A DNA stretch of 64,000 nucleotides, taken from assembly GCA_017654935.2 (NCBI GenBank), contig CM065684.1, forward strand, positions 63,769,594-63,833,593, written 5' to 3'. Under the pieces are notes generated by a model that was not told where the DNA came from, searched no databases, and worked only from the letters and a program-made list of their open reading frames with translations. A program made the position numbers and the translations under genes. This document shows, one piece after another, positions 8,989-60,746 of this stretch. Positions within the stretch are counted from its first letter, which is position 1. Every line of letters starts with the position of its first letter. This DNA comes from Phymorhynchus buccinoides. Lineage: Eukaryota > Mollusca > Gastropoda > Neogastropoda > Raphitomidae.

Positions 8989-9091
8989 AACCAACCTTGA
9001 AAAGCAGGAAAATGGAAAAGACCAAAAACATACAAAACATAACGCGTTTGGGACCCTAAAAAACAGATTTGATACATCAACCGCTCTCAAC

Positions 9092-10533: not shown

Positions 10534-10760
10534 TCAACACTGAGACTGGGATGCAGTCAGCTTCTCCACGGCTCGGGCCACCTGAAGGACCGTCACCTCG
10601 TCAAACTTCCTGCCCACGATCATCAGGCCGATGGGTAGTCTGCCCTTGCCGGCGGCCTCGTCAGGGGCAGAGAAGCCCGCGTTGATGGAGAGGGCGGGGT
10701 GCCCCGTGAGGTTGAAGGGCATGGTGTTGGGGGTCATGGTCAGGCAGTTCTGCTCAATCT
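10534..10760 (-). CDS. Amidase exon j (last exon)
   Basis: The acceptor CTGTGTGCAG precedes base 10760. Two bases complete the split Glu codon, then 74 codons and a stop follow (227 bp). It begins [20 protein letters not shown] and contains [20 protein letters not shown], the conserved amidase C-terminus where LPIG(L/M)MI(T/V)G is near invariant. It is fully open. The array at 10808-11185 in the intron just upstream is made of copies of this exon's 5' part. Confidence 0.93.
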
Positions 10761-13700
10761 CTGCACACAGCGCAACGTCACAAGGTTAGTTAGGGAGTGG
10801 TGGGTGGTTGATGGAGAGGGCGGGGTGCCCCGTGAGGTTGAAGGGCATGGTGTTGGGGGTCATGGTCAGGCAGTTCTGCTCAATCTCTGCACACAGCGCA
10901 ACGTCACAAGGTTAGTTAGGGAGTGGTGGGTGGTTGATGGAGAGGGCGGGGTGCCCCGTGAGGTTGAAGGGCATGGTGTTGGGGGTCATGGTCAGGCAGT
11001 TCTGCTCAAACTCTGCACACAGCGCAACGTCACAAGGTTAGTTAGGGAGTGGTGGGTGGTTGATGGAGAGGGCGGGGTGCCCCGTGAGGTTGAAGGGCAT
11101 GGTGTTGGGGGTCATGGTCAGGCAGTTCTGCTCAAACTCTGCACACAGCACAGCATCACAATGTTAGTTAGGGAATGGTTGGTTGATGGTTTCGTCCCAT
11201 GAGGACGTTAAACCCCACGTTCATTCATTCGCAAGAAAACAATATTGAGCAACATTCTGTGCAGTGGAACCTCCCTGGGACCTTGACAAATCATCCCAAA
11301 TAAGGTCTCAAGTGGGAAGGAGTTGCATAAGGGAGGTCATTTTAATACTTACAAATGACAATGTCTCGGAGAAGTAGGTTTTACGTGGGAGGGAGTTTTA
11401 TATAGGGTGGGTGGGGGTGGAGTGTCTTATAAGGGAGGTTCCACCGTATAGAGTAGAGTAACGCAGGTCTGATACAAGTTGTGCTGCTCTCAGCACAATA
11501 GAAAATGGATACGTTTCTGGATGGCGGGACAAACAGGAGGGTATGATTGTGAAGGTGAGAGTGTGTGTGGTGTGCATTTTTGTGTGTGAAAGAAAAATGT
11601 GTCTCTGTGCATGTGCATCATGTTTGTGTGTGTGAGAAATATGTGTCTCTGTGCATGTGCATCATGTTTGTGTGTGTGAGAAATATGTGTCTCTGTGCAT
11701 GTGCATCATGTTTGTGTGTGTGAGAAATATGTGTCTATGTGCATGTGCATCATGTTTGTGTGTGTGAGAAATATGTATCTCTGTGCATATGCGTCATGTT
11801 TATGTGTTTCGGGCGTAACACAGATTCTTTATCTTGTATAAAACCCCTCATTTTATTCAGATAATATTTTTGTTCATTATTACAACTATGGGGAGGTATG
11901 TTAGCTCAGAACAATGAACTCCACCGAAGCAGCTCAGCAGCAGTGCAGTGTCTCATGTGGTGGTGGCCTCCTGATAATTTAACACTTATTTGCTCCCCTT
12001 GGACTACTGATTTCGGATTCTGCAGCCTGACAAATAGAGTGTGGCTGCGAGTTGTGACTGGGAACAAGCAGTGTGGGGCGCAACACCACTGTACGATCCA
12101 GAAGATGAGACAGCAAACAAAAAGCCAAAAAAAAACCTATTGGATGAAAATACATTTGTAAACTATTCAATAAAAAGTGGCAAAAATCAGGAAAACCTAA
12201 AACAAATACAGACCCAAAATAATAATAATAATAATAAATACACCCACCAGCAAAAGTGCAGTCTGCAGGAGGAATCTTGGCGGCAGGTTCCGGCAGGGTT
12301 GGCATCACCAGCACGTCACACTCCTTCAGCGCGTCGTCATATCGCCGTGACAACTCCTCCACCATGTTCATGCCCTTGCCGTAGAAACGGTTGCCATAGT
12401 AATAGTCGATGTACTTCAAGTGCATGGTCAGGCACTTCAGCAGTGGCTGCAGGTCCTGGGGGTAGGTGGTGCGGCCCCGGTACAGCGTCTCCTGCAGGGA
12501 CGTGGCATAGAACCCTTTGCGGGAGTAGCACGTGCCTGAGAGAGAGAGAAATGTAAATCAGAAAGCACTGATGATGTGCAAACTTCTGCCTTTGGCGTAG
12601 AACCCTTTGTGGGAGTAGCACGTGCCTGAAGAGAGAGAAATGTACAGCAGAAAGCACTGATGATGTGCAAACTTCTGCCTTTGGCGTAGAACCCTTTGTG
12701 GGAACTAGCACGTGCCTGAAGAGAGAGAGAAATGTACAGCAGAAAGCACTGATGATGTGCAAACTTCTGCCTGTGGCGTAGAACCCTTTGTGGGAATAGC
12801 ACGTGCCTGAAGAGAGAGAGAAATGTACAGCAGAAAGCACTGATGATGTGTAAACTTCTGCCTTTGGCGTAGAACCCTTTGTGGGAGTAGCACGTGCCTG
12901 GAGAGAGAGAGAAATGTAAATCAGAAAGCACTGATGATGTGTAAACTTCTGCCTTTGGCGTAGAACCCTTTGTGGGAGTAGCACGTGCCTGGAGAGAGAG
13001 AGAAATGTACAGCAGAAAGCACTGATGATGTGTAAACTTCTGCCTTTGGCGTAGAACCCTTTGTGGGAGTAGCACGTGCCTGGAGAGAGAGAGAAATGTA
13101 AATCAGAAAGCACTGATGATGTGTAAACTTCTGCCTTTGGCGTAGAACCCTTTGTGGGAGTAGCACGTGCCTGGAGAGAGAGAGAAATGTAAATCAGAAA
13201 GCACTGATGATGTGTAAACTTCTGCCTTTGGCATAGAACCCTTTGTGGGAGTAGCACGTGCCTGGAGAGAGAGAAATGTACAGCAGAAAGCACTGATGAT
13301 GTGCAAACTTCTGCCTTTGGCATAGAACCCTTTGTGGGAGTAGCACGTGCCTGGAGAGAGAGAGAAATGTAAATCAGAAAGCACTGACCGTGCGCAAACT
13401 TCTGCCTACAGATACAGCGTTTCCTGCATGGATGTGGGGTAGAACACTTTGCGAGAGTAGCACGTGCCTGCATACTTTGCATAATCATAATTCTATAATA
13501 ACAATAATAAAGTCATAGAATCAACAACATTTCTATATCTTATTGTTTACTTCCAGTTTAAATTGTTTTACCGTTCCCCAAAAAATCCACATCATGCCAA
13601 AAAATCAGCAAATAAGAATATTTACAATAAAAATGTAAGATCATTATTGAATATTCTCAACTGTCCACAAAGTATTTTCATAATCTACATATAATTTTCG

Positions 13701-14398
13701 GAACAGTCCACATGAAAAAAAGATTTTAAAATGGATTACAAATTTGAAAAACAATTCAGACAAACTGAAAGACAATCCTTTAGATGTTACCATGCATTTC
13801 CACTTAATTGGCATCAATATTGTTCCCTTGCAACATGCAGACCGGTATATTGATCACTGCTTTCATTACCATTGGCTTCAATAATTGTTCCCTTGCAACA
13901 TGCAGACCGGTATATTGATCACTGCTTTCATTACCATTGGCTTCAATAATTGTTCCCTTGCAACATGCAGACCGGTATATTGATCACTGCTTTCATTACC
14001 ATTGGCTTCAATAATTGTTCCCTTGCAACATGCAGACCGGTATATTGATCACTGCTTTCATTACCATTGGCTTCAATCATGCTCTTGTAGGTCCCGTGTC
14101 CTTGCTGTCACCGTCCACAGGGCCCCACCTGAACAATACAGCATTATTCTGAGATCAGTTTGTTTTATCTTCGTTGTTATTGTTGTCACTGTCATCATCA
14201 TCATCCTTGTCATCATCATCATCATCATCATTATAATAATTATCATAATTTTCTCATCATCATTATCATCTTAAAGAATATCAATGTCATCATCTCCAGT
14301 GATCAGAATGAAAGAGTTTACAGCATATCCAGCAAAACATTGAAAAGGGATATGCAATTAAGAGGGAACGCAAGACACAGAGAATAAGAAGGGGGGGT

Positions 14399-14433
<35 letters not shown>

Positions 14434-17400
14434 CAAAGGGGGGGGGGGGGGGGGGGGGGGGGGGGGTGGGGGGGGGGGGGGGGGGGGTGGTGGGGGGGGG
14501 GGAGAACATTGAAAAGGGATATGCAGATTAAGAGGGAACGCAGAGACATCACAGAGAATAGAGGGACAGAGGGGGGGGGGGGGAGGCAGAGACATCCACA
14601 CAGAGGCAGAGACAGAGAGACATCCACACAGAGGCAGAGACATCCACACAGAGGCGGAGACAGACACACAGAGGCGTGAGACAGACACAGACATCCACAC
14701 AGAGGCGGAGACAGACACACAGAGGCGGAGACAGAGACAGACAGACAGACACAGAAACAGAGACATCCACACAGAGGCAGAGACAGACACACACATACAG
14801 AGACAGAAACAGACATCCACATAGAGGCGGAGACAGACACACAGAGGCAGGAGACAGACACACAGAGGCGGAGACAGACACACACATACAGAGACAGAAA
14901 CAGACATCCACACAGAGGCGGAGACAGACACACACATACAGAGACAGACACAGACATACAGAGAGGCAGACAACACAGACATCCACACAGAGGCGGAGAC
15001 AGACACACACATACAGAGACAGAAACAGACATCCACATAGAGGCGGAGACACACACAGATACAGAGACAGAAACAGACATCCACAGAGGCAGAGACAGAC
15101 CACACAGAGACAGAAACAGACATCCACATAGAGGCGGAGACAGACACACACACAGAGACAGAAACAGAGCCACACAGAGGCAGAGACAGACAGACACATA
15201 CAGAGACAGAGACAGAAACAGACATCCACACAGAGGCGGAGACAGACACACACAGACACATACAGAGACGGAGAGACAGACACACACATCACAGAGGCAG
15301 AGACATCCACACAGAGGCAGAGACATCCACACAGAGGCAGAGACAGAAACAGACATCACACACAGAGGCAGAGACAGACACACACATACAGAGACAGAAA
15401 CAGACATCCACACAGAGGCAGAGACATGACACACACATAAACAGAGAGGCATGAGAACAGACACACAGAGAGATCGGAGACATCCACACAGAGGCAGAGA
15501 CAGACACACAGAGGCAGAGACAGACAGACACATACAGAGACACAGACATCCACACAGAGGCAGAGACAGACACACACATACAGAGGACAGAGACATCACA
15601 CACAGAGGCAGAGACATCATACAGAGACAGAAACAGACATCCACATAGAGGCGGAGACATCACAGAGGCAGAGACAGAAACAGACATCCACACAGAGGCG
15701 GAGACAGACACACACATACAGAGACAGAAACAGACAGACCACACAGAGGCAGGAGACAGACACACACATACAGAGACAGAAACAGACATCCACATAGAGG
15801 CGGAGACAGACACACACATACAGAGACAGAAACAGACATCCACACAGAGGCAGAGACAGACACACAGATACAGAGACAGAAAACACATCCACACAGAGGC
15901 GGAGACAGACACAGACACACAGAGGCAGAGACAGAATCCACAGACATCAGACACACAGAGGCAGAGACAGACATCACACAGAGGCAGAGACAGACATCCA
16001 CACAGAGGCAGAGACAGACACACACATACAGAGACAGAAACAGACATCCACACAGAGGCAGAGACATCCACACAGAGGCAGAGACAGACACACATACAGA
16101 GACAGAAACAGGAATCCACACAGAGGCGGAGGGACAGTCCACACACACATACAGAGACACATAGATCGGAATATATACAGAGTCACATCTTCTTTAGGCA
16201 AAAGCACAACGATAATTGTGCCTAACGCTTCATCCACCTTGTGGCCACAGTTGTGCAGCGTTGTGTCACCATCTCCAGCACTTCTAGGAAACAGACACAC
16301 AGACAGATGAACAGACAAACACACTTCTAGAAACAGAAAGACATGAGCAGACAAACACACTTCTAGGAAACAGAAAGACATGAAGACAAACACTTCTAGG
16401 AAACAGACACACACAGACAGACCAACAGATGAACAGACAAACACACTTATAGGAAACAGAACAGAGATGAACAGACAAACACACTTCTACTTATAGGAAA
16501 CAGACAGACACACACACAGACCAACAGATGAACAAAACACACTTATAGGAAACAGACACACAGAACAGACCAACAGATGAACAGACAAACACTTCTAGGA
16601 AACAGACCACACAGATCCCAACAGATGAACAGACACACAGAAAGACACAAACACACTTCTATGAACAGACAAACACACTTATAAGACAGACCAACAGATG
16701 AAGACACAACACACTTATAGGAAACAGAAAGACACACACACAGGCCACAGATGAACAGACAAACACACTTCTATGAAACAGACACACAGACACAGGCACA
16801 GATGAACAAACACACTTCTAGGAAACAGACAGACAGACAGACCAAACAGATGAACACAACACACTTCTAGGAAACAGAAAGACACACAGACAGACCAACA
16901 AGATGAACAGACACAACCACACTTCTAGGAAAGACACACAGACATCCCAACGACAGAACAACACCCTTCTACCAGAAAGACAGCATGAACCAACACACAT
17001 ATAGGAAACAGAAAGACACAACACACAGATGAACAGACAAACACTGGAAACAGACAGACACACAGACATCCCAACAGATGGACAGACACCCACACTTCTA
17101 GGAGAACAGAACAGACACACAGACAGACCAACAGATGAACAGACAAACACACTTATAGGAAACAGACAGACACACACAGACCAACAGATGAACAAACACT
17201 TCTAGGGAACAGACAGACAGACACAAACAGCTGAACACAAACACCCTTCTAGGAAACAGAAACAGACACACCAACAGACACACAGACAGACCAACAGAGA
17301 CCAAGATGAACAGACCACCACACACCATCTTTGTGCAGCGGCAACAGAGGCACCCTGCACGGTACAGCCATCACTGAGTCAGGAGCTCAACTATCTTCCT

Positions 17401-20400
17401 CACAACGTCCCGAACCTCCGGACAGATGAACTCACAAGCCCTCCTTCAGCTTCCTCAACACACCTCCATATGAACCTCCACGGACAGCAGAACTCAAAGC
17501 CCTCCTTCAGCAGGCCAATCCTCTTTCAGACGTCACACTGACCAAGATGGATTTATTCACCACTGAACATAGATAGATAGCGGCAAATAGGCATCCTCTT
17601 TCCACATCAACTTCACATGCAATATGTAACTATTGCTATCTGTATGAATATTGTCCCGAACCTCCGGACAGCAGAACTCAAAGCCCTCCTTCAGCAGGCC
17701 AATCCTCTTTCCATAGATCAATCATGCATGACGTCACCTTCACACTGAACTCATAGATACTGACGTCACCCTCATACTGAAATAAATACATCAGTCATGC
17801 ATATGAATATTGTCCTGAACCTCCGGACAGCAGAACTCAAAGCCCTCCTTCAGCAGGCCAATCCTCTTTCCACTGACGTCACCTTCACACTGAAATAGAT
17901 AGATAGATAAATAAATACATCAATCATGCATATGAATATTGTCCTGAACCTCTCGGACAGCAGAACTCAAAGCCCTCCTTCAGCAGGCCAATCCTCTTTC
18001 CACTGACGTCACCATCACACTGAAATAGATAGATAGATAAATAAATACATCAATCATGCATAAGAATATTGTCCTGAACCTCTGGACAGCAGAACTCAAA
18101 GCCCTCCTTCAGCAGGCCAATACTCTTTCCACTGACGGTCAACCATTGAGATAGTACTGAAAATAATACTTGGAACATATTGTCAGCATAACTCAAAGCC
18201 CTCCTTCAGCAGGCCAATTGTCTTTCCACTGACGTCACCATCACACTGAAATAGATAATAGATAGATAAATGGATTTACCTGAACCTCCGGAAATACATC
18301 CTTCAGCAGGCAATGCTTTCCAGACGTCACCATCCCACTGAAAATAGATAGATTGGTTTGAATAAATACATCGTCATGCATAAGACTATTGTCCTGAACC
18401 TCCGGACAGCAGAACTCAAAGCCCTCCTTCAGCAGGCCAATTGTCTTATCCCTGACGTCACCCTCACACTGAATAGATAGATTGATTTTTTAATAAATAC
18501 ATCAGTCATGCATTATGAATATTGTCCTGAACCTCCGGACAGCAGAACTCAAAGCCCTCCTTCAGCAGGCCAATACTCTTTCCACTGACGTCACCTTCAC
18601 ACTGAAATAGATAGATGGATTTAATAAATACATCAATCATGCATAAGAATATTGCAGAACCTGCAACCTCCGGACAGCAGAACTCAAAACCCTCCTTCAG
18701 CAGGCCGATTGTCTTTCCACTGACGTCACCCTCACACTGAAATAGATGGCAAAATCGATATCCACAGGCAGTCTTGAAATGGGAAAAAATATTCATAAAA
18801 CATTTCAAAACTACTACTGATTGTCAACTGCGGTGGCTTCAGTTGAGAGTATTACATAGACTCCTGCCCACTGAAAGATACTTGTTTTTATGTAAAATTT
18901 CAAATTCTCAAACATGTACTTTTTGTGGCTTTCCCCCCTGAAGATGAAACTTTAGTCCACCTTTTCTGGACTTGTAACCATGCTCAGGTATTTTGGACAA
19001 ACTTCATTAATACATTTTCTTGGATTCATGACGATTGCAACCATACACATAATTTTAGTCTCTCACAAACCCTAGTTTTGCTAGGATGGAAACAAAACCA
19101 AAAAACGGATAAAGTCATGGATCTGATCATACTATTGGCTAAATTATATATATTTAAATGTAAGCTAAATAAAACAATCCCATGTCTGACAGCTTTTTAA
19201 AATTATCTCAAAAGTCGCTTCTGGGAGGAATTGTCGTGTCATTCAATGGAAGCCTACTTCGAAGGCTCTCTTCCAGACTACCTTTTCCTCTCTTCTCTCT
19301 TGCCTACACACCAGAACGCAACCTCAGATCAAGTAGCCTCAAACTTCTTTGCTACACCTGTCACCAAATACAAAACAAGTTGGAAACAGAGCTTTCCGTT
19401 TCCAAGCACCACACATCTGGAACAACCTCCTTCCTCTCTCCGCAGCTCTCCATCTTTGTCTTCTTTCAAAACTGGCCTGAAAACTGTTTACTCTTCAAAA
19501 AATACCTCTGTGTGATCTCCTGTGTCTTCTCCCCTTCAGTTCACCCTCTGTGAGTTTTTGCTGAGTTGGTCTATGTGTGAGTGCAGTGCGATAATGTGGC
19601 TAATTGGTTTTTTTTCAATGGATTTTTTGTTATGGTTGTGTTTCCACTTTTGTATAATTATGTTGTTTTTCTTCATGATTATTGTATGTATGTTTTTGGT
19701 AAAGCGCTGTGAGTCCTGCTGCGCCAGGAGACCGGCGCTATATAAGAGTTATTATTATTAAGGGACTATGGACAATTTTACATATAATTGGAACGCTTAC
19801 AAACCTCTGATTGATAGCTGCGGGTGAAAAAAGTAATGTAGTACAATAATATTATATTGATTTGTAGGCTTGTATTGCTACAACATGCCTTCTTTTATTT
19901 GTTTTTTCTTTAATGAGATGAACTTGGCTTGATTAGAGAATGGAAATTATAAACTTTTGTTGTCAGCACATACAATTTAAAAAAATTTGATTATGACTGA
20001 CACCCTGAAGATTTGCAGTGGAAACAAAAATGATTGCCCCCCCCCCCCCCCCCCCCCTTCTTTTGTCTAAATAATACTATTACTCGTTACTGTTTTTTAG
20101 ACGCCTTTTTGGTATGTACGTAGGCTGTTAGAAGCGAACATTTACAAGAATAGGAGAGAGAGAGAGAGGAAGGGGGGGGGGGAGAGAGAGGGAGAACAGA
20201 GAGGGAGTTTATGTATGTTCCTGGATGTGTATTTCTATTTGTGAGTGTGTGTGTTTTCTATGTATATTTGTAGTAATGTTATGTTACATGATTTATGTTT
20301 GCATGTTTGCTTAAAAATGAAAAAAACACCTCTTGGTAATCACTGCTTATTATAAAATAAAATTTCCAACCTTCTCATTTCAACATGATTACAAACTCAC

Positions 20401-23400
20401 AGTCACTCACTCACTCACTCTTTCAAATCAGAAACACAAAGAAACACTTTAGATTTTAAATGTAATTTATTGTTTGACTGATTCATACATTTTTATACAT
20501 GTACAAATCGTATCCATGTGCTAAATATTGAAAATGCATGTTGATGGATGGGTGTGTGAGAGAATGAAGGAATTGTGGAGGGGAAAGATGAGAGAGAAAT
20601 AAAATATGTTATAACAAAAATATTTGTTTTAAATAATAAAAAAAATAGATAGATAGATAAATAATAAATAAATCATGTATAAGATTACTGTCCTGCGCCT
20701 CTTCACAACAAAACTCAAACCCTTTCAGCAGACTGTTAGTCAGTCAGCGGACCAATCCTCTTTCCACCGACATCACCATCACACTGAAATAAATAAACCA
20801 ATATACCATGTACAAGATTATTGTCCTGCACTTCTTGACAGCAGAACGCAAAGCTCTCCTTTGAGGCCAGTCCTCTTTCCACCGACATCACCATCACACT
20901 GAAATAAATAAACCAATATACCATGTATAAGATTATTGTCCTGCACTTCTTGACAGCAGAACTCAAAGCTCTCCTTTGAGGCCAGTCCTCTTTCCACCGA
21001 CATCACCATCACACTGAAATAAATAAACCAATATACCATGTACAAGATTATTGTCCTGCACTTCTTGACAGCAGAACGCAAAGCTCTCCTTTGAGGCCAG
21101 TCCTCTTTCTGCTGACATCACCATCACACTGAAATAAATAAACCAATATACCATGTACAAGATTATTGTCCTGCACTTCTTGACAGCAGAACGCAAAGCT
21201 CTCCTTTGAGGCCAGTCCTCTTTCTGCTGACATCACCATCACACTATACAAAATATTAAAATAATTATTTTCCTCCTTTTCTCGGTGACAAAATTCAATC
21301 AATATTCCAACCTTTCACTCTTGTGCATTGGTATACAACTAAAATATAACGGCACCCACCACCACCACCACCACCACCACCACCCACCCACTAGGAAAAA
21401 GAGATAAAAAATTCATTCAACTTTCATTTTTCAGATGCGCTATCAGGCAGAGTTGATGGGTACAAGTGCAAGTGTACTGAGATCCTTTGTCCTTTAAGAA
21501 AAACAAGCAAGCGTGTATGAAGATGTAATGATTTTAAGTGAATGTTACTATTGTGTGTGTGTGTATGCAGATGCACTAAGTGCAGTAATTAGATAAGAGT
21601 GCAAGTGTACTATAAATGGTAAAAATGTAAGAGTGCAGTTGTACTAACCAGTGTAGAGTACTGGGGCACTGAGAGGTCTTGAGGCTGCCTGGAATCTCTA
21701 CCATCATCATAGCCTGCGATTACCTGGGAACATCAACATCAAATTAGCATGCGGTACACATGCACGCACGCACACACGCATGCGCACAAACACTAGAGTA
21801 GCTCCATGTTCGCAGCTCGTGTAAGTGACATTTCATAACATACGTTTGATCGTAGACATTATCACAAATCTCAACATTCAAACTTGTCAGTTGTTGTTGG
21901 ATGGATGTACTTTCACAAAGACCTCACTGATAGTGGCTCCATGACTCGAGTCTCATTTCTGTTAAAAGAAGGTTTAGTAGGTGCTGTCTTGCATTTGTTA
22001 GGTAAGAACAGGTCCACTCAAATTTACCACAGTGACGTAGCTGCAGTGCAGTGTCTCCTCTCCTGGTTGCCTCTCGATACACAACCACCGACTGCTCTTT
22101 GGTTTGGGGACTGTGAGTACACAAGCCAGGGTATGGCTGTATGCGAGTTTAGAGGACTTAGAGAAAACAATATAGAGAGCACTGTCGGTGGACCAAAACA
22201 AATGAAAATAGGATTCCAACCTAAAGTCTTAATCTTACCCTTAGGTCCAAAATGATAGTAGTGTTTGTAATGTTAATTGCACCAAATGAGAAAGAAAAAA
22301 CCCACACTTTATGCATTATCCATGAAACACAGCTTATAGCAAAGGTTCAAACCTCTAGGCGACATTCTCTACTGCCTTGGCAAAGGGGTCCTAATGGTCT
22401 ACAGTGCAGTGGGGTATCCATCATCATCATCACCATCATCATCGTCATCATCACCACCATTTGCCATGGGCCCCAGATGATCCACGGTGGGCTATCCATC
22501 ATCATCATCATCATCAACATCGTCAACGATTCAAACCTCCAACATCAGAGCGACATCCCCCACAGTCTGGGCCATGGGCCCCAGATGATCCACGGTGGGC
22601 TATCCATCATCATCATCATCATTATCAAAGATTCAAACCTCCAACATCAGAGCGACATCCCCCACAGTCTGGGCCATGGGCCCCAGATGATCCACGGTGG
22701 GCTATCCATCATCATCATCATCATCATCATCAAAGATTCAAACCTCCAACATCAGAGCAACATCCCCCACAGTCTGGGCCATGGGCCCCAGATGATCCAC
22801 GGTGGGCTCCATGTTCACGGCACCGGTATAAGGCACCAGACCCCACGTGGGCTTCAGTCCCACAATGCCGCAGTAGCTGGCCGGGATGCGGATGGACCCC
22901 CCCTGGTCCCCTCCGATGGCCATGTCCACAAGGCCCAGGGACACCTGTAGAGACAGTGTGTGAGGTGGGGGGTGGGTTAGGTCCTAGTGGATGGACCCCC
23001 CCTGGTCCCCTCCGATGGCCATGTCCACAAGGCCCAGGGACACCTGTAGAGACAGTGTGTGAGGTGGGGGGTGGTTCAGGTCCTAGCGGATGGACCCCCC
23101 CTGGTCCCCTCCGATGGCCATGTCCACAAGGCCCAGGGACACCTGTGGAGACAGTGTGTGAGGTGGGGGGTGGGCTAGGTCCTAGTGGATGGACCCCCCC
23201 TGGTCCCCTCCGATGGCCATGTCCACAAGGCCCAGGGACACCTGTGGAGACAGTGTGTGAGGTGGGGGGTGGTTCAGGTCCTAGTGGATGGACCCCCCCT
23301 GATCCCCTCCGATGGCCATGTCCACAAGGCCCAGGGACACCTGTGGAGACAGTGTGTGAGGTGGGGGGTGGTTCAGGTCCTAGTGGATGGACCCCCCCTG

Positions 23401-29400: not shown

Positions 29401-32400
29401 TACTGATCTACCGTTAATAATAATAAACTGACATTCCTTACAAACACTTCATTAATTCATGCCCCATGGGGTTTGTCCCTGTCTATCTTTAGAGTTTCTT
29501 ACAGGAAAATTAACATCTCTATCGAACACACCATCGCAAAAAGAGTTAGTAACAACAACTCAATTTTACCTGGCCAGTCTCTGAGTTAAATCCCCTAACA
29601 GACAAACACTGCTAAGGCCCAAGTGCTAAAAAAGAAGGAAAGCTACAGATCCCGCTTTCGATACAAACAGCGGTCATGCGCTTTTTGCTTACACGGCAGT
29701 ATTTGTCAAAATCCCATGCCGAGGGAAAGAGAGAACTAAAGGACACCGCTTTCGCCGTGGGGAATCCTGTGATGTCACAAATCTAAGCCCCGATAAGAAA
29801 AAGAGTGGATGGATAAATAGAAAAGACGGTGTGGGGTGTAGAGGAAAAGTGGCGCGTGTGTGACACATTCCACTCACAGAGTGTGTGAGGTGGGGGGGGC
29901 TATGTCCTAGCGGACCATTTCGTGAAAAGCATCAAAACTATCTTGTCATTGTCCCATTATCATCATCTTTTGTCACTGTCATTATCATCATCTTGGACAG
30001 ACCAGAGCAGCTACAGGGACCTCAAGTAAACATCTAATAAACAATCTCTTCTTTCTTTGATATTTTTGTCTTCCTGCCCAAAAGTTCTTTTCGTCTTACC
30101 AATGAGCAATTTAAACATTTATCATCATATAATTCTCATCCTCATCCTCATCCTAATGTATTGCCTTTGTCATCGTGCATCTTAATCTTTATCATAATAA
30201 TACAGGAATACAAAATCTCAGAATAACACATATAACTAACGTAACATTTTTGAAAAAAAAAAAAAGAAAATAGAAATAATGCAATGTTAAGTGTTACTTG
30301 TGACCAAAAAGACTTATACAATTATATCATGTGGCTGACTGAACTCGTCAGCCTAGATGTTGAACCTAGCGTGTATCTTTTGGTATTTGGCATATTCTAG
30401 TCTAGATGGTCTCTGTGAACAAGGCTCTGTGAAATTCGGGCTGCTCGCCCACGAGAGCTCGTCACTGCAAGCGGAGCACCTACACTTTATTTTTTGCCAC
30501 ATAGATTAGTTTTAACTTAAATTGGACTGCAGACTTCCATCCTACATTGTCATACCAATGCCCCGCTCCCCCGCTAGACCCCCGGCGATACAGTTTGTTG
30601 TCGTGGGGGTTGTGGACAGCCCGTCAGTGTTGGGTGATGCTCTGCCACTGACACAACATGTCCTCGCACCCCTGCTTGCCCCAAGATACATCCACCTGTA
30701 ACACCACAACACCATTCCAAGATTATGATGTAGATACCTGCAATACTATAGAATAACAACATAGCATCATGTAACATGCTGCTGCCCTAACACACGTCCT
30801 CCACCGCTCCTTCCAAGATACATCCCCGCTGGTAACACCAACAACACCATTCAAATTATATGCAATACACTGCAATACTATAAGTACAAACTAGCATAAT
30901 GTAACATGTTTCGGTACACTGAAACACACAACGTCTTCCACTGCTGACTTGCCCAAGATACATCCCCACTGGTAACAACACAACACCATTCCAGATTATA
31001 ATGTAATACACTGCATACTATTGGCTCACTGCATGTATGGTTATTAACGCCCTTGGCAAAAGTTAAAGACCCTTGTTGATCAGTATCCAAAAAGGGCAGC
31101 CCTCTTGCAAAGGCACGCCATTAAGTGACGCTCAAATAGGGTTATATTGGCGAGAATTTACCCTTCTTTGGTCATACTCAACCATCTTCCCCTCCCCCAC
31201 CAAGGCATTCACTCTTGCAAAAGGTTTCTCTGCATTTGCCAATATATGCAACATAGCAATAATGGAACATGCTGCTGCCACTGAAACACGTCCTTCAATG
31301 TGACTTGCCCAGATACATCCCTCCTGGTAACCCCACAACACCATTCCAAATTTAATGTAATACCTGCAATACTATAAATGCAACATAGCATAATTCAACA
31401 TGGGTACTGCCACTAACACACCTCCCTCCACTGGACGATTTGGCCCAAGATACGTCCCCTTGCACACCATTCAATTATGATTGTTTACGCTGAAATGCAA
31501 CATAGCATAATTTAACATGGGATGCCATTGAAACCAGGCCTCCACTGCTGACTTGCCCAAGATACATCCCCCTTTACCACAAATGAATACACCTCATGGA
31601 CAATAATTCTAACAGATAAGTTTTAGCTTCATGTAAATGTGTTTGTCGTCCACAAACGGACCATAGTGTGAAACTAACTATAACCTGCACCTTATTATGA
31701 CAGATTGCTAACGGTGGTTGGATGATGTTTCGAATCACAATGTTGCTGCTTGCAGCCGAGAGGACATTAACCCTGTTTTCACTTTCAGTGTAAAACTGTT
31801 GAAACCAATATGACCGCTAATATACTCTTGATCACCACACCAAAGAGGCAGTGATCACGTTTTGACAACCCCCCCATCCCCACCCACCCCAGTGCAAGTC
31901 TTCACCCACACGTAGCCCTACCTCCGATCACTGGATTGGTTGCAAACTTCACTGAAAAAAGACGATTCGCAACATACCTAAACAGACCATATTCATTATT
32001 TATTTCATCATCATTAATCACGTGTTACTCTGCTATGTGGTGGCAATGCATGTGCATTTACTGGGTCTAGGTGAGTCTGTGTGTTTGTGTCCGAGGGTCT
32101 GTGTACATGTGTGTGTTGTGTGTGTCGCGTCGTGTGCGTGCGTGCTCGTGTGTGTGTGTGTTTGTGCCGTCTGTCTCACTCTTATCTTTCTTAAGCCTAC
32201 ATCCAAACTCCAAAAAATTCCGGAGACAAAGTTCAAACTTGGGCACAAAGTCCATAAATTTGGTTCTCACACACGCACGCACGCACGCACGCACAGCACA
32301 CACACACACGCACACGCATACACGCACACATACACGCACACGCATACGCACACAATACCAGCATCCAGAATCCTGGAGACGACGGTAGCATCGAACTCAG

Positions 32401-35400
32401 GCACGTAGTGATCCATGAACTTGGTTCCGTTCCTCATGGGCACTCCTGCCACTGCTGTATTGTCCTTGATGGCTACCCTTTTGCCAAACAGTTTGCCGCT
32501 TGGCGCGCCTTGGATGTCACAACGCCACGCCCTGAAAACCATCAGTATCGTCATCACTGTCATTATCATCTGTATTGTCATTATCATAAATTTTATCCGA
32601 CCCCCCCGGAAAAACACCCCATAAATATCAACATCACCATGTTATCCTAGATGGCGACTGCTTTACCAAACAGCTTACGGCTTGACACAACCTTCGATGT
32701 CACAACGCCACGCCCTGAAATCATCAGCATTGTCATCATTATTGTCAGCATCATCATCATGACAATCATCAAGATCATTAGCAACAACATTGTAACTGTC
32801 AAGTTAACCTTCATGGTTACCGTTTGAAGAAAATGTTTGCCCCCAGAGGCTGCTTGGGTGTCATCATACGCAGTGTTGTCCTTGATGGCTATTGTTTTAC
32901 GTAACAGCTTGACGCGCCATTGGGTGTCACAACCGCCTCGCCCCTGAAATATCAGCATCTGTCCACATCCTCATCACCATCCTCACATGATCACTACCCT
33001 CCTCCTCTTCATCACTTCTATATTGTCCTTAATGGCTACCATTTTGCTAAAACCGTTTCCCTCTAGATGCCGCTTGGACAATCACAGAGCACTATTTTCA
33101 TCAGCATCATCAGCATCGTCATCATCTTTAACGATTAATGTTTTCCAAACTGGTTTGAAATGTTTCTTGGATGTCGCAGTACTTACTATACTACAGTCTA
33201 AAGTAAGACAGAGAGAGATAGAAGAGAGTGGGGGGAGGTGTTTGGTGGGCTGGCGGGATGGAGTGAGGGAGGGGGGGATAGTGGGGAGAGAGAGAGAGAG
33301 AGGTGTGTGTGTGTAGGGGTGTGGGGGTGTGCATGCATGTGTGTGCGTAAGCTATTCCGCACACACCAATGATTAAAGCATCGCTAGTTTAATGACCATG
33401 TAGGTCTTATCTTCACAGAACTACAATTGCGCACAGAATTGTAGAAACCATTCATTTTCGTCCCAAATGCTTTGAATCTTGTGGAAGTTGGGTGAGCATA
33501 GCAGCACAGATATCTCCGGCTAAACCAAGACTCACTTATTAATTTACCCCACCACCCCCAGAAGAAGAAGCTGTCCCTGCTTATCTCATAGCACAAAAGA
33601 GCACAGAAACCAACTTTGGCAACTGTCACCTTTAGTAATAGGCTTTTTCCACTGCTGTGGGTGATCACTTTACCGCTGAACCTCCGTCGCTTGTGAACGC
33701 CTTGAGACAGATAGATAGAAGTTGTACAGTCTTTACTTTTGCCTTGATTATTATATCTTCACATCACATCATTTTCATCATCATCATTATCATCATCATG
33801 CCATCACCATGTCATCACCACAACCATCATCATGTTATCTTCACCACCATCATCATGTCATCACCACAATCACCATCATCATCATCACTATCATCATCGC
33901 CGTCGTTATGTCATCACACCATCTCATCATCTTCTTCATCATCATCATATAATCATCACCACCATCACCACCACATCATCACCATCATCATCATGCCATC
34001 ATCACCATCATCATCATATCATCATCATCATCATCATCATCGTCATTGTGATCATCATCATCCTCACCACCACCATCATCATCATCATCGTCATCATTAC
34101 TATCATCATCATCATCATATCATCACATCTCCTTCTTCATCACATATTAATAATCATCATCACCATGATCATAATCATATCATCATCATCATAACAATCA
34201 TCACCACCATCACCACCAACATCACCAACCACCATCATCATCAACTTTCATCACCAGCAACCACCATCATGCATCATCACCACCACAATCATCATCACCA
34301 CCATGATCACCATGATCATAATCATATCATCATCATCATAACAATCATCACCACCATCACCACCAACATCACCATCATCATCAGCATCACCATCACCATT
34401 CTCATCATCATTATTATCATAATCATAACCTTCTTCATCACCATCACTATTATCGTCACCATCATCATCACCATTTTTATAATCATCGTCATCATCATCA
34501 TAACAATCATCACCACCATCTTTCGTCTTCATCCACATCATATAATCATCATCACCATCATCATCATTATCTTTATCATCATCGTCATCATCATCATAAC
34601 AATCATCATCAGTGAGGTATAAAAGAAAGTCAAAAGCTAAACGGATGTAATGAGTGAATGTAACAAATGCGTCGCATGGCGTCAGGCAGTTACCATGCGT
34701 TACAGGGGTTGTCCTCCGGCTGGGGTCTGTGTCCTGGGGTCCGGGGGTACTTGACCACTGGCACTGTGGGGTCCACCATCTCACTGACCCTCTGGTAGGA
34801 AGCGGTCAGACCCTTCATTTTCTCTGCGCACGGACAGGAGCACAATGTCATCACAGGCGTGCACAGCACAAGTCACTGGCACACGTGCGCAGAGACATAA
34901 ATTGTCAAAACAAATGCACATGCACAGTCACACACGTGCGCAGAGACATTTGTCAAAACAAACGCACATGCACAGTCACACACGTGTGCAAAGACATTTG
35001 TCAAAACAAACGCACATGCAGTCACACACGTGCGCAGATACATTTGTCAAAACAAACACACATGCAAAGTCACACACATGCGCAGAGACATAAATTGTCA
35101 AAACAAAAGCACATGCACAGTCACACTCTCGCACTCAAAGGCTATCCAAATGTGCCTCACAGACATTTTTCAAAGCCAACGCACATGCACAGTCACACAT
35201 TGTGCGCACCCCCTTGCAGAGTGAAAGTGCACAATCAACACACACACATACAAATTTTTGATTGATGTTTGTATTTTGGTTTAATGAGGGCAGGATAAAA
35301 AAAAAGCTTTGTCAGCTAAAAAAAGATAATTTTGACTTGACTTGACACACACACACACACACACCAGGGACCCCCATTTGGGGGTCTATGAAGTACTAAA

Positions 35401-35974
35401 AATTCTAAAGGACCCTCTAAAAGTATGTGCAGGGGGTCCCAGGGATGCACAAGAAAAAAATCGTTTTTAGCATTCGCAATACCACTGGGACCCTCTATCC
35501 CGCCTCTAAGGGACCCTCTATACTGTAAGAGTGAAGAAGAAGTCCCTGGGACCCCTTTGTTTTACGGGACGATTGGTAGCCCCTGACATATACACACACA
35601 CACACATACTGCGTGTAAGCGAGCACATATGCCACGGGGGGCGTACGATTCGATGGCAGAGGTGCGACGGGGACGCAAGCAGCACGCACCTCAAGGGCAC
35701 GCTCGCGTAGCTGACAAGTGCAACTTCGGCGCAATTTGAAGCATGTGCACGACCAACACACAAACACTGACTAAGATGGCGGTCTCCCATAATATGCGCG
35801 CGCTCCTTGATGGCCGATTATGACGACAACGTTGGTACCAGCCATAACAGACACAGAACAGACATACCTCACCCGCATCTGTTCCCCAGCTCATGTTCTG
35901 TACGCATTGTACTTCAGCTCCCGTTGAATCTCCCGAAGGTCTTTCATCGGGGAGGTCTCAGGCTGGGGCATGTA
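10534..35974 (-). CDS. Amidase-signature hydrolase gene, ten visible exons (5' end not found)
   Basis: Exons, 5' to 3' on the minus strand: a 35974-35873, b 34823-34694, c 32531-32359, d 30695-30556, e 22944-22744, f 21723-21649, g about 17537-17326, h 14128-14065, i 12535-12248, j 10760-10534. All carry GT-AG junctions, and phases agree across the intact junctions b/c, e/f and i/j. Family knowledge: amidase-signature enzymes hydrolyse amide bonds with a Ser-cisSer-Lys triad. Here Lys lies in [12 protein letters not shown] (c), the cis-Ser in GGSSGG (d) and the nucleophile in [11 protein letters not shown] (e). The order and motifs fit bacterial-type amidases of about 500-560 residues better than fatty-acid amide hydrolase; substrate is unknown. 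Exons b, c, e, f, i and j are clean; a, d, g and h hold indels. The start codon, first exon and promoter were not found. It may be functional with consensus errors, or a pseudogene. Confidence 0.88.
10808..11185 (-). repeat. 126-bp tandem array copied from the exon j acceptor edge
   Basis: Three further copies of a 126-bp unit follow the exon itself at exact 126-bp spacing (GTTGATGG at 10681, 10807, 10933, 11059). On the minus strand each copy holds the acceptor TGTGTGCAG and about 27 codons of exon j through GHPALSIN, then leaves the exon and meets a stop. The last copy is more diverged. Confidence 0.93.
11262..11446. mobile_element. Mariner-like MITE copy 2
   Basis: It is bounded by CAGTGGAACCTCCCT and by GGGAGGTTCCACCG-TA, with the internal block TACTTACAAA..AATGTCTCGGAGAAGTAGG shared with copies 3 and 4. 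More diverged than those two. Confidence 0.75.
11575..11815 (+). repeat. 44-bp tandem array
   Basis: About five copies of a 44-bp unit beginning GTGTCTCTGTGCATGTGC. It is not derived from a recognisable exon edge. It lies in the intron between exons j and i. Confidence 0.9.
12248..12535 (-). CDS. Amidase exon i
   Basis: Acceptor CTCTCTCTCTCAG before 12535 and donor G|GTGGGT after 12248. The length is 288 bp: 2 bases, 95 codons, 1 base. It reads [20 protein letters not shown], then [20 protein letters not shown] and [29 protein letters not shown] is a highly conserved amidase segment. It is fully open and in phase with exon j. Confidence 0.93.
12536..13475 (-). repeat. ~90-bp tandem array copied from the exon i acceptor edge
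   Basis: About ten copies at roughly 90-bp spacing. On the minus strand each holds the pyrimidine tract, the AG acceptor and the start of exon i ([10 protein letters not shown]), then diverges to a unit-specific tail ([11 protein letters not shown]) and a stop. The outermost copy, about 13405-13470, is different: it keeps exon-like sequence further, through a [12 protein letters not shown] segment. Confidence 0.93.
13476..13814. other. Intron sequence, nothing recognised
   Basis: AT-rich intron of the amidase gene between two arrays. No frames or repeats stand out. Confidence 0.6.
13815..14064 (-). repeat. 65-bp tandem array copied from the exon h donor edge
   Basis: The block TGTTCCCTTGCAACATGC recurs at 13821, 13886, 13951 and 14016, giving a 65-bp period. 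On the minus strand each unit contains ATTGAAGCCAATG|GTAATG, the last bases of exon h plus its donor. The copies are nearly identical. Confidence 0.93.
14065..14128 (-). CDS. Amidase exon h (short, with a 1-bp frame problem)
   Basis: The acceptor TTGTTCAG precedes 14128 and the donor AATG|GTAATG follows 14065. From the expected phase it begins GALWTVTAR and, after a one-base shift, continues [11 protein letters not shown], joining exon i in phase. The 64-bp length is one base off what the phases require. The order (Leu-Trp, then Tyr-Lys-x-Met) fits the region before GxGxxxxGFY in bacterial-type amidases. Confidence 0.7.
14129..14389. other. Intron sequence with ATC-rich tract
   Basis: Contains an (ATC)n/(ATT)n-rich tract at about 14192-14275. 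No gene seen. Confidence 0.6.
14390..14582 (+). repeat. Poly-G tracts
   Basis: Very long G-runs interrupted by short spacers (14391-14502 and 14570-14583), flanked by a repeated block containing GAACATTGAAAAGGGATATGC-like sequence. Their true length is uncertain in any assembly. Confidence 0.9.
14583..16165 (+). repeat. Minisatellite of CACACAGAGGCAGAGACAGA-type units
   Basis: About 1.6 kb of a complex repeat of roughly 25-50 bp (ACATCCACACAGAGGCAGAG, ACACACACATACAGAGACAG, AAACAGACATC). Many one- and two-base indels interrupt the pattern. Long frames on either strand here only read through the repeat. Confidence 0.95.
16265..17315 (+). repeat. ~50-bp minisatellite (AGGAAACAGACACACAGACA type)
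   Basis: About 20 irregular copies of a unit running TTCTAGGAAACAGACACAC, GACCAACAGATGAACAGAC, AAACACAC. Copies are heavily disrupted by small indels, consistent with instability or poor consensus. The segment at 16178-16264 between this and the preceding array is unique. Confidence 0.93.
17326..17537 (-). CDS. Amidase exon g (indel-ridden, internally duplicated)
   Basis: The acceptor GGTCAG precedes 17537 and the donor GATG|GTGTGTGG follows about 17326. Across frames it reads IGLLKEGF...[15 protein letters not shown], then a Gly-Cys-Thr-Val segment and PLHKDG. This matches the bacterial-type amidase order RIGxxxEGF, PEV, GCTVE, xPxH. At least two or three indels and an internal duplication of the LKEGFEF segment break the frame. 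The array downstream in coordinates (17538-18770) consists of copies of its 5' half. The exact 5' boundary is uncertain. Confidence 0.65.
17538..18770 (-). repeat. ~100-170-bp tandem array copied from the exon g acceptor edge
   Basis: About ten copies (CAGCAGGCC near 17691, 17850, 17980, 18110, 18206, 18431, 18564, 18698 and others). On the minus strand each has ATTTCAG, then [19 protein letters not shown] and CCPEVQD, then (GATA)n/(ATAA)n-rich intron-like sequence. In several copies the exon part is an intact frame of about 23 codons. Confidence 0.92.
18830..19197 (+). pseudogene. LINE 3' ORF end, zinc-knuckle-like region
   Basis: It reads [15 protein letters not shown], then CTFCG and, after a frameshift in a C-run near 18935, [19 protein letters not shown]. 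CxxC...ETxxHLFWxC...FW is the usual C-terminal pattern of many non-LTR retrotransposon reverse transcriptase proteins. The rest of the element is missing. It lies in the amidase intron between exons g and f, opposite in strand. Confidence 0.6.
19200..19762 (+). pseudogene. L2/CR1-like LINE 3' end
   Basis: The frames contain [17 protein letters not shown], the usual C-terminal tail of L2-like reverse transcriptase ORFs. A 3' tail follows with AAGCGCTGTGAGTC..GCGCTATATAAGAG and TTATTATTA at about 19702-19760. It is 5'-truncated and frameshifted. Confidence 0.65.
19763..20640. other. Intron sequence, nothing recognised
   Basis: Holds a C-run at about 20037-20057 and a (GA)n/G tract at about 20153-20205. 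No gene features. Confidence 0.55.
20690..21246 (-). repeat. ~117-bp tandem array, second locus of exon g-derived units
   Basis: Five copies at about 117-bp spacing. On the minus strand each has TTATTTCAG, then [12 protein letters not shown] and a segment resembling [13 protein letters not shown]. It is clearly the same ancestral unit as the array at 17538-18770 but diverged as its own subfamily, with most copies lacking one base in the middle. The two loci are separated by LINE remnants and unique sequence. Confidence 0.9.
21247..21648. other. Intron sequence with (CAC)n tract
   Basis: Contains (CAC)n at about 21353-21386 and small AAGTGCA-type repeats. No coding evidence. Confidence 0.55.
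21649..21723 (-). CDS. Amidase exon f
   Basis: Acceptor TTCCCAG before 21723 and donor CTG|GTTAGT after 21649. Exactly 25 codons, phase 0 at both ends, reading [20 protein letters not shown] then QYSTL. The (M)L..VIAG(Y/R)D..D.RQ motif is characteristic of bacterial-type amidases right after the DAALML segment that ends exon e. No array abuts this exon. Confidence 0.93.
21724..22385. other. Intron sequence, nothing recognised
   Basis: Unique intron between exons f and e. A block near 22045-22070 (GCAGTGCAGTGTCTCCTCTC) resembles one near 11939-11955, but no element was defined. Confidence 0.45.
22386..22743 (-). repeat. 102-108-bp tandem array copied from the exon e donor edge
   Basis: GGGCCCCAGATGATCC recurs near 22471, 22579 and 22681, and again in exon e at 22786. 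On the minus strand each unit has [19 protein letters not shown], the donor GTTTGA and an (ATG/GAT)n tract. The first copy (about 22386-22475) is partial. Confidence 0.93.
22744..22944 (-). CDS. Amidase exon e (catalytic serine)
   Basis: Acceptor GTCTCTACAG before 22944 and donor GAG|GTTTGA after 22744. It has exactly 67 codons, phase 0 at both ends. It starts [20 protein letters not shown], continues [20 protein letters not shown] and ends [30 protein letters not shown] carries the nucleophilic Ser of the amidase signature. It is fully open and flanked on both sides by minisatellites made from its own two edges. Confidence 0.96.
22945..23885 (-). repeat. 99-bp tandem array copied from the exon e acceptor edge
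   Basis: About nine further copies at a strict 99-bp period (GATGGACCCCCC at 22891 in the exon, then 22990, 23089 and on). On the minus strand each has CTCTACAG|, then [18 protein letters not shown] including the catalytic Ser, then His and a TAG stop. The last two copies carry extra C's and small indels. A short relic of the tail (GAGTGTGTGAGGTGGGGG) sits at about 29878-29912. Confidence 0.95.
23886..27100. other. Long intron segment, mostly unassigned
   Basis: No clear gene. The part at about 24400-24660 is more GC-rich than its surroundings and may be transposon-derived. (GGCAA)n lies at about 25290-25310. A minus-strand frame of 84 codons at 25782-26036 is open, contains [20 protein letters not shown] and has no family I recognise. 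A short (GC)n/(GT)n tract is at 26895-26925. Confidence 0.45.
27655..28145 (-). pseudogene. Degenerate LINE reverse transcriptase
   Basis: The minus strand reads [16 protein letters not shown], then [20 protein letters not shown], then [20 protein letters not shown] and [17 protein letters not shown]. These match, in order, the FDxVN, GVRQG..LSP..F..FLND and YADD..I motifs of non-LTR reverse transcriptases. Stops, frameshifts and an A-run interrupt it, and the YADD tyrosine is lost. More of the same element may extend on both sides (about 27100-29400). Confidence 0.65.
28146..30420. other. Intron segment, mostly unassigned
   Basis: AT-rich, probably decayed LINE sequence in its first kilobase, with no clean frames. 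A partial relic of the exon e array tail lies at about 29878-29912. Confidence 0.4.
30421..30500. repeat. Interspersed repeat (SINE-type 3' domain)
   Basis: GTGAAATTCGGGCTGCTCG..GAGAGCTCGTC..GCGGAGC resembles 44008-44065. The same block recurs with the SINE-like sequence there, so it is probably part of that family. Confidence 0.4.
30556..30695 (-). CDS. Amidase exon d (GGSS signature, frame broken)
   Basis: The acceptor GTGTTACAG precedes 30695 and the donor ATTG|GTATGA follows 30556. In the expected phase it starts GCILG, matching the DAG at the end of exon c. Shifted frames then give [21 protein letters not shown] and GGSSGG, the cis-Ser signature of amidases. The last codons (GCA TTG) return to the phase needed for exon e. 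The total length (140 bp) still fits the phases, so the indels compensate. Either homopolymer errors or real decay could explain this. Confidence 0.75.
30696..31600 (-). repeat. Degenerate ~130-bp repeats copied from the exon d acceptor edge
   Basis: AGATACATCC marks copies near 30819, 30957, 31310, 31450 (AGATACGTCC) and 31560, besides the exon at about 30685. On the minus strand each has a TTACCAG-like acceptor and the start of exon d (GMYLGKS-type), then TTGGAATGGTGTTGTG-type intron sequence. Unrelated sequence interrupts at about 31030-31230. The copies carry many small indels. Confidence 0.75.
31601..32066. other. Intron sequence, nothing recognised
   Basis: Unique AT-rich sequence with a C-run near 31869. 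No coding evidence. Confidence 0.5.
32067..32350. repeat. (GT)n and (CA)n microsatellites with unique centre
   Basis: GT-rich at about 32067-32170 and CACG/CA-rich at about 32268-32350, forming an imperfect inverted pair around about 95 unique bases. Confidence 0.8.
32359..32531 (-). CDS. Amidase exon c (catalytic lysine)
   Basis: Acceptor GGTTTTCAG before 32531 and donor GCTG|GTATTG after 32359. 173 bp: 1 base, 57 codons, 1 base, fully open. It begins [20 protein letters not shown], continues [20 protein letters not shown] and ends [13 protein letters not shown]. The Lys in AIKDN is the general base of the Ser-cisSer-Lys triad in this family. The phase joins exon b through a split Trp codon. 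Confidence 0.95.
32640..33190 (-). repeat. Degenerate repeats copied from the exon c acceptor edge
   Basis: Three or four diverged copies (about 32650-32730, 32820-32950, 33020-33100, partial at 33140-33180). On the minus strand they read [41 protein letters not shown] and the like, preceded by acceptor-like AG and separated by (ATC)n-rich spacers. They are older or less accurate than the arrays at exons e, i and j. Confidence 0.75.
33191..33765. other. Intron sequence with small GA and GT tracts
   Basis: (GA)n/G-rich at about 33206-33320. No coding evidence otherwise. Confidence 0.5.
33766..34615 (+). repeat. (ATC)n/(CAT)n trinucleotide array, ~850 bp
   Basis: Nearly continuous ATC/ACC/ATT trinucleotides with larger internal duplications (ATCATAACAATCATCACC occurs three times). 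All frames here are repeat read-through (poly-His, Ile, Ser). Confidence 0.96.
34694..34823 (-). CDS. Amidase exon b
   Basis: Acceptor CGTGCGCAG before 34823 and donor CATG|GTAACT after 34694. 130 bp: 2 bases, 42 codons, 2 bases, fully open. It reads [20 protein letters not shown], then [20 protein letters not shown] and NA with a split Trp. The (M)KG..ASY..V.E..(D/E)P start and the P..(N/D)P..AW end match the N-terminal region of bacterial-type amidases. Confidence 0.9.
34850..35235 (+). repeat. ~50-60-bp tandem array (ACGTGCGCAGAGACAT type)
   Basis: About six copies combining CAGTCACACACGTGCGCAG, AGACATTTGTCAAAACAAA and CGCACATGCA. It sits in the intron upstream of exon b. The shared string GTGCGCAGAGA is in the opposite orientation to the exon b acceptor, so it is not counted as an exon-edge copy. 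Confidence 0.9.
35236..35872. other. Intron sequence, nothing recognised
   Basis: Contains short (CA)n tracts (about 35345-35363, 35591-35604) and a repeated GGGACCCTCTA-type block at about 35410-35520. No coding evidence. Confidence 0.5.
35873..35974 (-). CDS. Amidase exon a (earliest exon recognised, one frame break)
   Basis: The acceptor GATTCGCAG precedes 35974 and the donor GCGG|GTGAGG follows 35873. It reads [20 protein letters not shown] then KYNA; a second frame gives NMSWGTDA with the phase needed for exon b's Glu-Lys-Met-Lys. The helical, charged N-terminal segment before (M)KG..ASY fits amidase N-termini. One indel is required to join the frames. Low sequence conservation makes this the least certain exon. 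Confidence 0.55.
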
Positions 35975-36320
35975 CTGCGAATCTCATCAATAACGTTATC
36001 ATCATTATATTTCTGCGAATACTGCCATAAAATACGTTATCATCCATTATATTTACTGCGAATCTGCCATAAAAATCCGTTTATCATTATATTTTACCGC
36101 GACTCTGCCATCAAATACGTTTATTACATTTACTGCGAATCTGCATCAAATACGTTATCATCTTATATTTACTTGCGAATTCTGCATAAAATCGTTATCA
36201 CATATCTTTACTGCGAATCTGCCTCAAATAAGTTATATATTTACTGCGAATCTGCCCGCAAATACGTTATCATTATATTTACTTTGCGAATCTGCCATCA
36301 ATACGTTATTAAATTTACTA
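35975..36320 (-). repeat. ~40-48-bp tandem array abutting the exon a acceptor
   Basis: About eight copies of TACTGCGAATCTGCCATCAA and ATACGTTATCATTATATTT. On the minus strand each unit ends GCAGATTCGCAGTA, the exon a acceptor plus its first two bases. There are many one-base indels between copies. Confidence 0.8.
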
Positions 36321-60620: not shown

Positions 60621-60746
60621 TGTCTTTGTGCGCGTTCGTACATGTGCGTGTGTGTATGTGTGCGCATGTATGTGTTTTTTGTGTATGTTTATGCCTCGAT
60701 GTGAACGCGGGCGTGCGAACATTGTACTGTGTGTTTATGTTAGTGT

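Follow-up and report, generated by a model that had tools for sequence, protein, structure and literature searches.

Many exons of a minus-strand gene in the gastropod Phymorhynchus buccinoides adjoin tandem repeats whose unit is a copy of the exon's own edge, a locus that raises the questions of what process multiplies exon edges and whether it acts beyond a single gene. The gene lies in a stretch of 64,000 nucleotides (the window) on contig C5 of the 2.12-Gb genome, and the coordinates of its parts are given below as window positions.

Minisatellites that span exon-intron junctions are known from the lancelet, where they are called mirages. According to excerpts of PMC3087553 and PMC3902484, they occur in Adh3, in the globin genes BflGb6 and BflGb9, in troponin C, and in PGBD5, the Adh3 (Canestro 2002) and troponin C mirages being cited there. 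Their units of 10-72, 60, 108, or 150-160 bp repeat the 5' or 3' exon boundary, mostly with the splice site; the BflGb6 mirage is on the acceptor side, with units of 150-160 bp that number six and three in two haplotypes, and the BflGb9 mirage is on the donor side (excerpts of PMC3087553 and PMC3902484). Lancelet mirages reportedly leave splicing undisturbed (excerpt of PMC3087553).

An amidase gene present in several copies

The minus-strand gene is an amidase by profile match (PF01425, E 1.6e-74), and its closest proteins are those of Babylonia (68% identity; named urethanase-like) and Nucella (67%). Its exons, a to j, were positioned via homology (tblastn with snail proteins) together with splice sites. 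The gene sits on one of two inverted contigs separated by a 500-N gap (G000:C5:63716626-63808359, which overlaps the left part of the window). We refer to the window copy as copy A and to the second contig version of the locus as copy B. The contigs are 99.1% identical across 20 kb. Across the gene's 5' half, identity is 90 to 94% and small gaps run to the hundreds; between exons g and h, the simple-repeat arrays match at 83 to 86%. Judged from these alignments, A and B are probably two versions of one locus, haplotypes scaffolded side by side.

For the window version, we take the 5' half to be poorly corrected. This half shows 360 gap openings in 6.9 kb relative to copy B, and its richness in indels makes the window frames of exons a, d, g, and h untrustworthy. 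The frame breaks that the window shows in exons d and h are not present in copy B, where exons c to j fuse into a single open frame ending at a stop. Copy B is without exons a and b because the preceding sequence reads N; exon a reads through in the paralog C743, although its frame is unreliable in the window. The contig pair also carries a partial amidase copy, tail to tail with the first (B2, exons f to j; B3, exons h to j), and C3 is a diverged paralog whose frame is intact.

Exon edges repeated beside eight of ten exons

Repeats built from the exon's own edge and splice site adjoin eight of the ten exons, the exceptions being b and f. The acceptor side is affected in seven exons (a, c, d, e, g, i, and j) and the donor side in two (e and h). 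All exons and edge copies described here lie on the minus strand. Arrays were located by TRF; exon limits come from tblastn and splice sites, those of g in the window being set by eye.

The last exon, j (227 bp including the stop; 10534-10760), carries an acceptor mirage of 4.0 copies of a 126-bp unit composed of 80 exon bases, the AG, and 46 intron bases (10681-11183). Exon i (288 bp; 12248-12535) has an acceptor mirage of 10 copies of a 91-bp unit with 33 exon bases (12503-13407). An older, longer, decayed copy of the same edge, recognized by eye, lies past this array at about 13403-13470, which points to two generations of duplication; two generations are likewise visible at exon g. Exon h (64 bp, 63 in copy B, its window frame broken; 14065-14128) bears a donor mirage in which a 65-bp unit of 13 exon bases, the GT, and intron sequence is repeated 4.2 times (13807-14077). 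The true copy of exon g (157 bp in copy B) occupies 17326-17482, its start being approximate in the indel-rich window. Its younger acceptor arrays, with units of 130 and 133 bp that include about 78 exon bases, extend over 17780-18747, and an older, diverged array of edge copies with a 115-bp unit lies at 20752-21245.

Exon f (75 bp; 21649-21723) is free of arrays at its edges. Exon e (201 bp; 22744-22944) is flanked on both sides, by an acceptor mirage of a 99-bp unit with 55 exon bases repeated 9.1 times (22890-23791) and by a donor mirage of a 102-bp unit, comprising 65 exon bases, the GT, and (GAT)n intron, repeated 3.3 times (22463-22808). Exon d (140 bp in copy B; 30556-30695, start approximate and frame broken in the window) has an acceptor mirage with a unit of about 140 bp, or 137 bp with 58 exon bases in copy B (30656-31021), and decayed copies seen by eye reach about 31580. 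Exon c (173 bp; 32359-32531) has its 5' edge partially repeated three times, in decayed form and with roughly 80 exonic bases per unit, in GAT-rich intron (32640-33090); these copies were spotted by eye and were not reported by TRF. Exon b (130 bp; 34694-34823) lacks an edge array, and a purely intronic array with a 48-bp unit lies near it at 34880-35126. Finally, the acceptor array of exon a (35874-35974, window frame unreliable) consists of noisy units of about 40 bp at 35973-36309; in C743, the corresponding units are clean and 35 bp long, and in both copies the units end 2 bases into the exon.

The copies retain their splice dinucleotides to a large extent. Intact junctions in copy B number 4 of 4 at j, 10 of 10 at i, 14 of 14 at g, 9 of 10 at the e acceptor, 3 of 3 at the e donor, 4 of 4 at h, and 4 of 6 at d. 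Wherever the sequence of an array was read, the innermost copy is the true exon. Translated in the frame of the exon, each of the seven edge arrays in copy B is interrupted by stops; the unit length is divisible by three in three of the seven, about the chance level. As judged from these translations, the decoy copies would not code.

Paralogous copies and the probable seeds of duplication

Comparison among the copies reveals how variable the arrays are. In B2 and B3, exons j and h each have a single edge and no array there, and the array at exon i has 18 units as compared with 10 in A and B. TRF found no array in C3 at exons f, g, h, i, or j or at the e acceptor. At exon d, arrays occupy the acceptor side in B and C743 and the donor side in C3. 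Decayed copies occur in C3 at exon c, along with one decayed donor-side copy at exon e, and the duplications at c and at the e donor may therefore be ancestral. The remaining arrays originated or disappeared separately among the copies, and the paralogs thus record repeated, recent, and independent origins or losses.

Differences extend to the two contig versions of the locus. The older 115-bp array at exon g is one unit longer in A (4.3 units) than in B (3.3), the two being probably haplotypes. The units at exon j vary at a Phe/Ile codon: A has two Phe and two Ile units, B has one Phe and three Ile, and the true exon is Ile. This different division of the variants between A and B, true exon included, indicates that the coding copy takes part in exchange within the array.

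Short direct repeats mark the unit ends of two arrays. In the unduplicated B2, the 8-bp word CCATCAAC occurs in the intron and again in exon j at a spacing of exactly 126 bp, the length of the exon j unit in A and B. At exon h, the unit is flanked by the 12-base words ATTGAAGCCAAT and ATTGATGCCAAT, which are identical at 11 of 12 places. The spacing in B2 suggests that slippage between short repeats is the likely seed. Among the joints that could be read, those at j and h show clear unit-end repeats, and those at i and the e donor carry extra bases. Exon lengths from c to j are alike in copy B and C3 (173, 140, 201, 75, 157, 63/64, 288, and 227 bp, the 64 reflecting a one-base difference of placement in C3), and comparison of the two over these exons reveals no new intron at a new coding position.

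An earlier, sequence-only reading of the window had described arrays built from the gene's own exon edges, and TRF places them accordingly, the array at exon a included. The unit lengths that it listed (65, about 90, 99, 102-108, about 117, and 126 bp) hold, although it had missed the units of 130-137 bp. Its argument that no single satellite had spread through the gene is upheld by units that differ from exon to exon, so we reject that explanation. The retained AG and GT sites (for example, 10 of 10 at i and 14 of 14 at g) agree with its view of the arrays as strings of decoy splice sites, and the differences among paralogs in arrays, edges, and copy numbers support recurring, independent local duplication at junctions.

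Mirages in other genes

The sequence-only reading had described these arrays for one gene and proposed that other genes of the genome be scanned for the same pattern. In such a scan, 12 of 30 sampled exons from the myosin-head and aldehyde-dehydrogenase (Aldedh) families overlap an array, and with arrays in myosin, Aldedh, and GatA-like exons, we reject the notion of a process limited to the amidase gene. The set of 30 consists of 24 myosin and 7 Aldedh matches minus one myosin decoy (the first match of L030); before the decoy was dropped, whole arrays overlapped 10 of the 24 matches for myosin and 3 of the 7 for Aldedh. The myosin sample was drawn from 68 matches and comprises 22 matches, the top 23 by E-value less a near-identical one, plus two in the same stretches. 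The myosin genome search scored the best 65 of 306 candidates and might favor exons with repeated copies. Very long open frames beside some myosin exons had been noticed before selection, which was still made by E-value. The Aldedh sample contains 7 of 13 matches, six being omitted as seeming close copies or for size. For both families, the exon limits are profile limits rather than mapped splice sites.

Reading of the sequences confirmed that the units contain an exon edge and its splice site at L036, L037, L042 (both edges), L048, L061, L062, and L063; at L041, the array is intronic only and abuts the exon. A GatA-like exon on C15, whose five best PDB matches are GatA chains, carries a donor mirage in which a 117-bp unit is repeated 11.7 times. 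Amidase-family matches with an array number 3 of 10 on C15, near-identical copies of one exon, and 0 of 2 for the single exons on C22 and C2. Similar myosin exons L035 and L036 both have acceptor-side arrays, that of L035 extending just 7 bases into the exon match, and the members of the similar pairs L029/L030 and L033/L034 differ in array presence. At L030, the decoy half-exon within a mirage (704-811) matched the myosin-head profile with an E of 5.4e-4, which indicates that automatic annotation can mistake decoys for exons.

Two further searches were set aside. An exon set for PF00083 (9 matches, 3 of them full-length single exons) was not used. Among 120 listed protein homologs scanned for three or more repeated 7-residue words, only P0003 and P0010, both from Batillaria, qualified; they repeat long stretches and look like fused gene copies, and we do not regard them as mirages in predicted gastropod proteins.

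Preference of arrays for junctions

Arrays are concentrated near the sampled exons. Within 500 bp of an exon, they cover 8758 of 28815 intron-side bases (30.4%), versus 184 of 15000 bases (1.2%) in the background, a small sample of 10 of 20 randomly drawn stretches trimmed to 1.5 kb. An array is present in 20 of 27 exon-centered stretches and in 1 of 10 background stretches. Elsewhere, coverage is 17.3% in the window from 1 to 10 kb, 5.8% from 37 to 64 kb, and 0 and 4.5% beside C3. Coverage is level from 0 to 400 bp off the exon, as expected from outward growth of arrays started at the edge and equally from arrays strewn near exons.

To ask how often single units span an exon edge, we treated each unit as a seed. 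In myosin and Aldedh, 12 of 33 units span an edge versus 6.25 expected (P = 0.0065); for myosin only, the figures are 9 of 28 versus 5.3 (P = 0.037). Among the amidase genes, this test covered copies B, C743, and C3. On single-copy length, 7 of 12 units in copy B span an edge where 1.1 are expected (P about 1e-5), and no significant excess appears in C743 (2 of 12, P = 0.17) or C3 (1 of 3, P = 0.33). Random re-placement of whole arrays gives 7 of 12 versus 3.2 in copy B (P = 0.014) and 5 of 16 versus 2.7 in the window copy (P = 0.12, with the d and g edges omitted), and no excess in C743 (2 of 12 versus 2.1) or C3 (1 of 3 versus 1.2). Because the extra copies are products, this procedure overstates chance. 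The array shuffling proposed in the sequence-only reading thus found significant junction enrichment in copy B and no significant enrichment in the other copies. Its suggestion of junction targeting, taken strictly, has moderate support: edge-spanning units exceed expectation near the sampled exons, and coverage does not change over the first 400 bp. Overall, the junction preference is real and moderate.

Origin of the arrays

We consider the best explanation (probability about 0.7) to be local tandem duplication near exons that gives rise to mirages and is filtered by selection, a process reaching beyond one gene and probably genome-wide in this gastropod. A segment near an exon, about 35 to 175 bp long, would be duplicated in tandem, again and again, probably seeded by short direct repeats through slippage or template switching. 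The arrays would then expand, contract, and homogenize through unequal exchange. Selection would presumably purge duplications that fall within an exon or contain an entire exon. Edge-only duplications would be tolerated, since exon definition matches each acceptor to a donor and the innermost copy alone has both splice sites; splicing past the decoys is presumably correct.

Local duplication with selection does not by itself account for the array-poor background (184 of 15000 bases), where either the process may favor exon zones or old near-exon sequence may retain arrays while transposons turn over deep introns. A mutational process that targets exon-intron zones, through transcription- or splicing-linked breaks, R-loops, or pausing, would duplicate junctions preferentially. 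Consistent with such targeting, array density within 500 bp of sampled exons exceeds that of the background stretches about 25-fold, and edge-spanning units exceed random seeds in amidase copy B (7 of 12) and in myosin and Aldedh (12 of 33). However, the excess of edge-spanning units near exons is only twofold, coverage is flat over the first 400 bp, purely intronic arrays such as that of L041 abut exons too, and C743 and C3 are without significant excess. Old near-exon sequence together with selection could yield the same picture, and we regard targeting as unlikely, if worth keeping in view. Chance, by which some arrays in an array-dense gene of a minisatellite-rich genome would inevitably overlap exon edges, appears quite improbable to us: the unit-as-seed results (P about 1e-5 in copy B, 0.0065 in myosin and Aldedh) and the almost array-free background stretches argue against it, even though some stretches off known exons are not array-poor (17.3% in the window from 1 to 10 kb) and whole-array re-placement is less decisive (P = 0.014 in B, 0.12 in the window copy, no excess in C743 or C3).

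The splice dinucleotides that remain intact in most copies would fit a selected function, in which repeated splice sites or edges aid exon recognition or regulate splicing. Yet intact paralogous exons do without arrays (C3, B2), paralogs differ in unit lengths and edges, stops occur in seven of seven edge arrays of copy B, and unit lengths that are multiples of three (three of seven) are about as frequent as chance predicts, so that we find a selected function very hard to credit. Least credible of all is an assembly artifact. The indel-rich 5' half of the window copy and the placement of A and B on inverted contigs across a 500-N gap do invite the suspicion, but clean arrays with unit-to-unit variants recur in copy B, C743, B2/B3, and on other chromosomes, and we reject an artifact as the whole answer.

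A bolder reading posits a genome-wide, ongoing mutational process in this gastropod lineage that turns exon-intron junction zones into minisatellites and hits at least a third of conserved exons. Array exchange would then return variants to coding edges, and the half-exons left behind, in their thousands, would be raw material from which new exons and introns could form. We offer this reading tentatively, at somewhat worse than even odds.

Comparison with known systems and implications

Although the sequence-only reading knew of nothing alike, the lancelet mirages in Adh3, globin, troponin C, and PGBD5 genes, as the excerpts describe them, are close counterparts. The repeat unit of the snail arrays likewise spans the exon-intron boundary, and both boundaries can be affected (exon e and myosin L042 on both sides, exon h on the donor side, and the other affected amidase exons on the acceptor side). 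Copy number differs between lancelet haplotypes, and probably between snail haplotypes too, if the two contig versions of the locus (4.3 versus 3.3 units) are such. Lancelet mirages are described as undisturbing in splicing; in the snail amidase, exons c to j of copy B form an open frame, and normal splicing is presumed. Unlike the lancelet cases, the snail belongs to another phylum and has mirages at 8 of the 10 amidase exons and arrays overlapping 12 of 30 exons sampled from two further families, its paralogs reveal independent origins or losses, and short direct repeats are found at the seed of two arrays. Among the matches listed in a search of the open-licence literature, judged by title and abstract opening, we found no report of mirages in molluscs or gastropods. 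New here are the phylum, the scale, and the evidence from paralogs that arrays originated repeatedly.

Intron gain by tandem duplication of segments that bear splice sites has been proposed (Rogers 1989, Zhuo 2007, and Gao and Lynch 2009, as cited in an excerpt of PMC3087553) and is also the topic of PMC4974935 and PMC2891723. Tandem duplication doubles splice sites in the snail as well. Unlike in intron gain, however, the duplications occur at existing junctions, and we reject new intron gain because exon lengths from c to j are equal in copy B and C3. The human IFI6 (6-16) gene has a minisatellite whose units carry a repeated splice donor; the snail units carry splice donors too, whereas IFI6 is a single gene with a short unit.

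If a third of the exons in a 2.1-Gb snail genome bear near-perfect decoys, they would constitute a natural test of how the spliceosome chooses its sites and of how tandem repeats give new introns, exons, and coding variants. They would also call for caution in annotation, one mirage decoy having scored as myosin-head in a profile search. Young arrays are numerous, and with the unduplicated paralogs for reference, the seed mechanism of mirages should be readable at the level of single bases.

Neighboring features

Other repeats accompany the gene. A 49-bp satellite occurs at window positions 1-523 and 8363-8992 in opposite orientations, and more arrays of this satellite lie beside the other amidase copies. 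Positions 53284-55720 are occupied by a 13-bp satellite of 188 units with a strong strand skew. An open frame of 750 aa with an RVT_1 reverse-transcriptase domain (57747-59996) includes a 56-bp minisatellite, the unit of which is found again downstream at 60362-60623. The neighboring plus-strand gene has an open frame with a methyltransferase domain (47832-48575), and a short repeat with a 16-bp unit stops 31 bp short of that frame.
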